A stretch of DNA of 62,401 nucleotides from Alkalinema sp. RU_4_3 (GTDB lineage Bacteria; Cyanobacteriota; Cyanobacteriia; Leptolyngbyales; Leptolyngbyaceae): assembly GCA_012031975.1 (NCBI GenBank), contig JAAUSA010000005.1, positions 1 through 62,401 of the forward strand, written 5' to 3'. The translations under genes and the position numbers were made by a program. The notes under the pieces were generated by a model. The model was not told the origin of the DNA, did not search any database, and worked only from the letters and a program-made list of their open reading frames with translations. How positions within the stretch are numbered: position 1 is the stretch's first letter; every line of letters starts with the position of its first letter. This document shows, piece by piece, positions 2,800 through 5,301 of the stretch.

Positions 2800-3561
2800 A
2801 TGATCATCGACTGCCACTGCCACGCCGGAAAAGGCGACCTCCTCACTGGCCCTTGGGACACCGATGCCCCCCTCGAAACCTACCTGCGTCGTTCCAAAGC
2901 CGCAGGCATCCACAAAACTGTGATTTTCTCCCCCTTCCACAGCGACTACCAAAAAGCCAACGCCAACACCGCCCGCATCATCGCCAAAATGCCCGATCGC
3001 TTCATCGGCTTCGCCTTCGCTCACGCCCAACGCGACAAAGGCAAAATTTACCAAACGATCGCCGAAGCCGTAACCCGCTGGCAATTTCGCGGCATCAAAG
3101 TCCACCGCATGGACGGCCCCGCCACCCGCGAAGTCTGCGATGCTGCCCGTGCCTTTGGTATCCCGTTGCTCTACGACCCCGCCGGACAAACTGATCTAGT
3201 TGAACTCCTCGCTGCCGAATATCCCGATGTCAATTTCATCATCCCCCATCTCGGCAGCTTCGCCGACGATTGGCGCGCCCATATCCGCATCATCGACCAA
3301 ATGGTGCGCTATCCCAACGTTTACACCGATACTTCTGGAATTCGTCGTTTCGATTACCTTGTCCAAGCGATCAAACGCGCGGGTGCCCATAAAGTCCTCT
3401 TCGGCACCGATGGCCCCTGGCTCCATCCCGGACTCGAACTGCACAAAATTAAACTACTCGGCCTCCCTCCCCAACAGGAGTCCCTTATTCTCGGCGGTAA
3501 CCTGCTTCGACTATTGAAAACTGCCAAAACGCCAACAAAATCTCGACAAGAATTAACTTAG
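2800..3561 (+). CDS. amidohydrolase-2/TatD-like metal-dependent hydrolase, 3' end truncated by a MITE
   Basis: TIM-barrel metal hydrolase of the amidohydrolase-2 family. Metal-binding IDCHCH is at residues 3-8, with further His-rich strand ends at KVHRMDG, IIPHLGSF and the terminal Asp in VLFGTDGPWLHPG. Substrate is unknown. The frame is open from 2668, but ATG 2800 directly precedes the N-terminal metal motif. The last codons (Leu, Thr, stop) are supplied by the left terminal repeat of the inserted element at 3553. Removing the element and one copy of TTAA joins this frame to 3838-3923 and adds about 30 codons before TAG. The catalytic core is complete, so activity may persist. Confidence 0.8.
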   Translation: MIIDCHCHAGKGDLLTGPWDTDAPLETYLRRSKAAGIHKTVIFSPFHSDYQKANANTARIIAKMPDRFIGFAFAHAQRDKGKIYQTIAEAVTRWQFRGIKVHRMDGPATREVCDAARAFGIPLLYDPAGQTDLVELLAAEYPDVNFIIPHLGSFADDWRAHIRIIDQMVRYPNVYTDTSGIRRFDYLVQAIKRAGAHKVLFGTDGPWLHPGLELHKIKLLGLPPQQESLILGGNLLRLLKTAKTPTKSRQELT

Positions 3562-3837
3562 ATCTTGCACCTTTCAGAGAAAGGTAGGTCTGGCAATGAC
3601 TTGGGTATGGGCTGGTCAAGGCTTATCCCGAGCCTCTAGGAACAGACCTAAGACTGCATTCAGGCTGGCTTTCTGGTAGACAGTGGGCATCAGACATACA
3701 AGGCCATACACTAGAGCTTGGGCGTACTTTGAGATGGTGTCCATAACCGTCCACTGAAATTGTTATATACGCCCTTTCTCACAGGTTTTCACGCTTTTGG
3801 CAATCCCAGATATCCGTAGGTGCAAGATCTGAGTTAA
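3553..3837. mobile_element. IS701-like MITE (non-autonomous element, ~285 bp including TTAA flanks)
   Basis: Bases 3553-3572 and 3818-3837 are inverted copies of each other with one mismatch in 20 (core AGATCTTGCACCT / AGGTGCAAGATCT). Both outer ends are TTAA, which fits the 4-bp YTAR target duplication known for the IS701 family. Inside, on the minus strand, lie the first 42 codons of a transposase. The element sits in the last codons of the amidohydrolase gene, and removing it restores the longer frame. No complete transposase is present, so it could move only if one is supplied elsewhere. Confidence 0.75.
3616..3744 (-). pseudogene. transposase N-terminal remnant (IS701/IS4-like) inside the MITE
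   Basis: A 42-codon frame from ATG at 3744 reads MDTISKYAQALVYGLV..., then LMPTVYQKASLNAVLGLFLE and a TGA. It resembles the start of IS701/IS4-type transposases, in which a short helical lead precedes LLGLFLEAQG. All catalytic DDE residues are missing because the internal part of the parent IS has been deleted. Confidence 0.65.
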
Positions 3838-3919
3838 GTATGACGATCGGCACAGAGGAGCAAAATCGATTGCTTTTGGATATGTTGGTTGGGTTGGGCT
3901 TGCAGGAAACCGTTGGGGT

Positions 3920-5301
3920 TTAGGACCGAAAACTACCATTCCAACCGCTCCCGCCCAAACCCGACGCCGGGGCCTTCGATCGCACCACCTGCCAAACCTC
4001 CATCTCCCCCTTCCCCTTCACCGAAATCACCCCATGGATTCACAGTCGTAGGCCGATCGCACCAATTCATGGGTAACACAGGTAATCTGAATGCGGCCCG
4101 GTGTACCGTGGGATTCCATGCGGCTGGCCGTGTTTACCGTATCTCCCCAGAGGTCATAGAGGTATTTTCTACGGCCAATTACCCCGGCGACAACGCTACC
4201 GGAATGGATGCCGATGCGGAGGTTGAGGTCATAGTCGTATTCCTGGGAGAAGCGTTCGACGCAGCGCAGCATTCGTACGCCCAATCGCACCATTTCGATC
4301 GCATGGTCAACCTTGGGTTTTGGCACACCGCCCGCCACCATATAGCAATCGCCAATGGTTTTGATTTTTTCTAGACCCTGTTCCTCGACGAGGCGATCGA
4401 ATTGCGAAAACACTTCGTCTAGCATTCCCACGAGTTCACTGGGCGATAGTCGTTCGGATAACTGAGTAAACCCCACAATATCGGCAAACAGAATACTTAC
4501 GTCATCGTATTCTTGGGCGATCGCCTCCGGATTTCGTTTCAATTGGTAGGCAATTTCCTGGGGCAGCACATTTTTTAATAGTCGCTCCGATTTGCGGCGC
4601 TCGTACACCAAGGCCCGGCGATGGATGAAGTCAATGCGGGAGGATAGTTCGCTGCTGTAGCCCATCACCATGCCAGCGATGTTAATAAAACTGAGGAAAA
4701 AGAGCGATCCGGCGATCTCCCCCTTGGTGGGTATACCATAGGTTGGTAACTGCCACATTGTTGTCGTTAATAGATAGGCCAAGGTCACAGCCCAGCCCAC
4801 AACGGTTGCCTTCCAAAAGGTCACCCGACAAAGCTGAACCCCCAAAATAATGAACACCAATCCCTGGGCATAGCTTTTATAACTGGATTCATCCGACTGT
4901 GCGATCCAGCCGATCGACACCACCCCAAGCCCCCCGATCAAAAACACCAGCGCCACAATTTCCGGCAGCCGCCGATACCACTTAGGCTGAAAACTCAGGT
5001 ACAGCGCTAGGGCATACAGCGGACAAATCACCCCGTAGCGTATCCACCAAAACTGCTCCCGAGAATTCGGCATGCCCCAAAAATCCGAAATCCCAAAGGC
5101 CATAAAGCCCAACAGAAAGCCCGCCAGCACAGGCCTGATCACCCGCACCGCCCCATAGCGATAAAACTTCTGAAACTGCTTCTCGATCGCCCCCGGAAAC
5201 CACAATCGAAACGCATAGGGCGACAGATCCTCATCCTCATCCCGCCGATCTAAACCCGGTGAATAGAGCAGCCATCCTTTCCGTTCAGGGGCCATAGGCA
5301 C
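3920..5301 (-). CDS. membrane-bound class III adenylate/guanylate cyclase (frameshifted near 4030)
   Basis: Makes cAMP (or cGMP) at the membrane. The N-terminal half has about six hydrophobic segments (for example RPVLAGFLLGFMAFGISDFW and IVALVFLIGGLGVVSIGWIA). The C-terminal half is a class III catalytic domain with metal Asp residues in ILFADIVGFT and IGDCYMVAGG, and nucleotide/transition-state residues in LYDLWGDTVNTASRME. The main frame stops at 4027 after YDCESMG. One base shifted, the sequence continues as VISVKGKGEMEVWQVVRSK, the standard family C-terminus, to TAA at 3920. One G appears to be missing from the run at 4030-4033. An intact domain apart from this suggests a sequencing error or a recent mutation. 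It is convergent with the MITE side and separate from the ABC operon. Confidence 0.8.

Follow-up and report, generated by a model that had tools for sequence, protein, structure and literature searches.

Typical multi-copy MITEs carry a smaller transposase remnant than the element described here, and the IS701 family, to which its parent was originally likened, generates 4-bp target duplications of the YTAR type. The bacterial MITEs, among them the cyanobacterial Nezha (cited in PMC10969869), share with this element a short length, a non-autonomous character, terminal inverted repeats and a target duplication; however, the present element is single-copy. It lies in a window of 62,401 nucleotides, the whole stretch of DNA that was analyzed (Alkalinema sp. 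RU_4_3, Leptolyngbyaceae; contig JAAUSA010000005.1). A closer counterpart is a full-length IS of Kovacikia minuta CCNUW1, which has the same terminal repeats, the same orientation of the ends, the TTAA duplication and a related transposase N-terminus, but differs in having the interior of about 990 bp that the window element has lost.

The non-autonomous element spans 277 bp (positions 3557-3833), with ends that match those of full-length IS copies. Its left terminal inverted repeat, CTTAGATCTTGCACCT (3557-3572, plus strand), and its right one, which reads CTCAGATCTTGCACCT as the reverse complement (3818-3833, minus strand), were both aligned with five longer elements, and immediately outside them lie the left (3553-3556) and right (3834-3837) copies of a duplicated TTAA, a place where other copies have other tetramers. 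The original prediction had described a 285-bp MITE with 20-bp terminal repeats. A MITE-type element with a 4-bp target duplication is borne out by the comparison with full-length relatives, and the inverted arms themselves (3553-3572 and 3818-3837; 20 nt, 95% complementary, with TTAA at each end) are real, but the size and the repeat length have to be revised, each arm being made up of the 4-bp target duplication and a 16-bp terminal repeat with one mismatch. The tetramer belongs to the target, because relatives with the same ends adjoin other duplicated tetramers: besides TTAA these are TTAG, CTAA, CTAT and GTAT (the last as GTAT/GTAT in the plus-strand copy of locus L166), and a few related copies have unequal tetramers on their two sides. 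The predicted TTAA duplication thus stands at both ends, but not as an obligate sequence; the tetramer is part of a target that usually has a central TA. TTAA, TTAG and CTAA conform to YTAR while CTAT and GTAT do not, and a literature search returned nothing on cyanobacterial MITEs with TTAA, on IS701 with YTAR or on the target duplications of cyanobacterial IS701. Going by the duplication, the insertion would have occurred at exactly this place.

DNA related to the element is found in 20 of the 42 genomes of the family and in 32 of the 390 genomes of the class (E up to 1e-12), the window's own genome being counted in both; among the 390, the only match over the full length is the window itself. 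The origin of the element is apparent from Kovacikia minuta, where the query aligns in two parts, bases 1-51 with one end of a 1273-bp unit and bases 52-285 with the other, order and strand being preserved. This unit consists of a 1265-bp IS plus its duplications (for example, NZ_CP083583.1 407626-408898). Seven copies of it are 98.9-100% identical, a further copy is 90% identical and two more are incomplete; an intact transposase of 391 aa, METILQHAQALVYSLLCLMP..., is encoded there in opposite orientation to the amidohydrolase. Three other genomes have elements of 1261-1262 bp that share these ends (G018, G027 and G032, with transposases of 391, 385 and 391 aa), such that full-length relatives of 1261-1265 bp are present in Kovacikia minuta and other Leptolyngbyaceae. 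The ends and the two-part match to the 1273-bp unit therefore identify the element as an IS minus about 990 bp of its interior, with the first ~51 bp and the last ~234 bp remaining. Because the DNA identity to the nearest relatives is about 74% (over the right part shared with the Kovacikia unit), the Kovacikia IS is a relative of the parent and not the parent itself. The similarities to the left and right ends overlap at TGACTTG (3597-3603, plus strand), a probable deletion junction with putative microhomology, which suggests that the deletion took place at a short direct repeat.

Consistent with this derivation, the minus strand of the element retains a remnant of the transposase N-terminus (3571-3744, with an ATG at about 3744) that aligns at 58% identity (57 residues) with positions 1-57 of the Kovacikia transposase and is interrupted there by in-frame TGA stops. 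It encodes MDTISKYAQALVYGLVCLMPTVYQKASLNAVLGLFLEARDKP followed by TGA, and its peptide MDTISKYAQALVYGLVCLMP... resembles the Kovacikia sequence METILQHAQALVYSLLCLMP... given above. While an IS with matching ends, as predicted, thus exists in related genomes, the search for a full IS with these ends in the element's own genome found none. The sole transposase match there is the element's own remnant; a search for the end pattern with 2 mismatches gave 24 matches versus 15 in a reversed control, with none exact apart from the two ends of the element, and the remaining matches are taken as mostly chance. Assemblies frequently merge the copies of a repeated IS where contigs end, and in this draft genome (362 contigs, 97% complete) a full-length partner could have escaped the search.

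Two observations on other elements were made alongside. In one genome (G022), a 1072-bp element flanked by TTAA at either side shares the ends of the IS (L025 1505-2576) and is possibly another deletion derivative of it. Separately, Kovacikia minuta (G014) harbors a 121-bp MITE family, with members at L173 1504-1624 and at some 40 other sites; its ends resemble CTCACATCTTGCAC / CTGAGATCTTGCAG, and most of its 4-bp duplications contain TA (GTAA, TTAT, CTAA, TTAC, ATAA, TTAA). Three partial copies are arranged head to tail at G014:C2:392668-392909, with a spacing of about 81-95 bp; the family was not found in the window's genome.

The affinities of the parent were assessed on the transposases of its relatives, as the searches did not recover the parent. 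The Kovacikia protein matches the Pfam profiles DDE_Tnp_1, DDE_Tnp_1_4 and DDE_5. Against NCBIfam, three proteins of the group score 61-70 bits with the best IS701 model (up to 69.6, best E 2.3e-19; cut-off 170), 55-66 bits with the general IS701 model (cut-off 150) and 47-65 bits with the IS4 model (up to 64.6, best E 8.3e-18; cut-off 115). The group hence resembles the IS701 and IS4 families in its transposase model matches and in a 4-bp duplication that usually has a central TA, but differs from both in scoring far below their curated cut-offs. The predicted IS701-like parent survives as a distant resemblance and a fair lead, but not as a family assignment, for the IS4 model scores about as well; on these sequence comparisons the parent would be distantly IS701/IS4-like, with membership of either family not established. 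We raise only tentatively, as the less probable side of the question, the idea that the lineage with CTNAGATCTTGCACC ends and TA-centered 4-bp targets stands apart as an unnamed group of its own, intermediate between IS701 and IS4, and is also the source of the Kovacikia 121-bp MITE family.

We are confident of an overall account in which an IS of about 1.27 kb lost its interior, and a TTAA-duplicating insertion at codon 252 of the amidohydrolase gene left what is now likely an immobile relic. The parent would have been a DDE-transposase IS whose IS701/IS4-like lineage occurs here and there in Leptolyngbyaceae and in other cyanobacteria. Recombination or slippage between short repeats, TGACTTG being one candidate, probably removed its interior and spared the two ends along with some 45 N-terminal codons of the transposase. 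A full-length partner may then have mobilized the shortened element in trans, or the element may have formed in place from a resident IS. The insertion would have duplicated TTAA past the conserved domain of the amidohydrolase; the gene now stops just within the insertion, where the CTTAG end provides the TAG. Since the searches of the genome turned up no intact IS and the nearest relatives are at the above-stated ~74% identity, the element is most likely immobile today. The complete amidohydrolase domain, the single copy, the transposase remnant, the two-part match to full-length copies, the duplication and the ends are all observed directly; we infer the microhomology route, the order of deletion and insertion, the loss of the partner and the slight effect on the enzyme.

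One form of this account has the full-length IS inserting here first and losing its interior in place, with the short form never having moved as a MITE, and to this we give even chances. The element is present in one copy only in its genome; the 42 family and 390 class genomes contain, beyond the window's own, no element sharing its junction; and the transposase remnant is still recognizable. Nothing speaks directly against it, the duplication and the ends being alike in both cases, and it is a variant of the best explanation and does not oppose it. As for the designation MITE, the element has terminal inverted repeats common to an autonomous element, a target duplication and no complete transposase. 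MITEs are however also expected in multiple copies mobilized in trans, and with one copy in its genome and none of the same junction in the relatives searched, the term fits only loosely, for an IS shortened by deletion.

The original prediction had further held that the insertion truncated the amidohydrolase. The gene (2800-3561, plus strand) encodes 253 aa from the ATG at 2800; the greater part of its final codon, like the TAG stop at 3559-3561, comes from the element. This stop depends on the left end of the element, which is CTTAG here versus CTCAG in the five longer aligned elements: the T of CTTAG makes the TAG, and with a CTCAG end the frame would run to the TAG at 3637-3639. The Amidohydro_2 domain (Pfam) is complete, covering residues 3-239 and profile positions 1-287 of 289. 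Of the uninterrupted homologues, the two nearest in sequence (84% and 81% identity) are 254 aa long. The length across the 79 homologues whose locus contains a stop codon ranges from 240 to 291 aa (median 265), with the one exception of a 55-aa protein with a broken frame; the eight closest, all cyanobacterial, have variable, unrelated tails (254, 254, 268, 258, 246, 252, 283 and 276 aa). The alignments of the window's DNA with four of the nearest homologues end inside the amidohydrolase gene, and synteny is therefore of no help at this locus. The claim of truncation is not supported, the domain being complete at 253 aa: the enzyme is not demonstrably truncated, and judging from its sequence the insertion, lying past the conserved domain, probably had little effect on it. 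As a separate observation, a second, short fragment of the amidohydrolase N-terminus (29 residues, 69% identical) lies upstream of the full gene in another genome (L059; G040:C36:11964-12050).

The original prediction had also taken the restored reading frame as support for the element boundaries and the TTAA duplication. Joining the flanks with one TTAA yields ...RQEL-SMTIGTEEQNRLLLDMLVGLGLQETVGV, a protein of 280 aa that ends at the TAG at 3921-3923, and it was proposed that the element cut short such a protein and that its precise excision would restore the gene. Besides the open joined frame, more distant homologues reach 270-291 aa, which makes a 280-aa ancestor possible, and the joined-frame stop overlaps the stop (3920-3922) of the opposing frame that continues a neighboring cyclase. 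However, the Pfam domain is complete without the tail, and the two closest homologues end, without an insertion, at 254 aa, which is in part what the prediction itself had named as refuting it. The would-be 28-codon extension (3838-3923, plus strand) is not conserved: no homologue locus has a similar tail, the best match in these loci having an E-value of 1.1. Moreover, stop-free runs of at least 28 codons are common by chance, occurring in 34% of same-composition shuffles and at 43% of window positions and frames; the restored frame, although indeed open to its TAG, is therefore uninformative and backs neither the boundaries nor a truncation. A transposase source for the excision was not found in the genome either. 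We accordingly consider a truncated 280-aa ancestor unlikely. The boundaries and the origin of the IS deletion derivative are decided by the comparison with the full-length relatives and not by the frame.

A side observation concerns the cyclase on the far side of the insertion. Its adenylate/guanylate cyclase ORF (4027-5301, minus strand) ends in ...YDCESMG with a stop at 4027-4029, while another frame continues the cyclase as ...GVISVKGKGEMEVWQVVRSKAPASG... through 3920-4026 to the stop at 3920-3922. A single-base frameshift near the C-terminus is probable here, or else a sequencing error.

That the region is a chance inverted repeat, a structured terminator or a regulatory RNA, for which its position at a gene end and its complementary ends might speak, has next to no likelihood and is ruled out by the full-length copies. 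Homology to these extends across almost the entire element, transposase fragment included, and at its gathering thresholds Rfam gave no hit anywhere in the window.

The element is real, has well-defined boundaries and derives from an IS by deletion; lying where the 3' end of its host gene is variable, it is an ordinary relic of mobile DNA. It provides a clean case in which full-length relatives settle both the ends and the origin of a lone IS relic, and it cautions that a frame which opens upon removal of an insert is weak evidence where the insert sits near the end of a gene. It may also contribute, to the annotation of cyanobacterial mobile DNA, an IS group that lies outside the curated family models.
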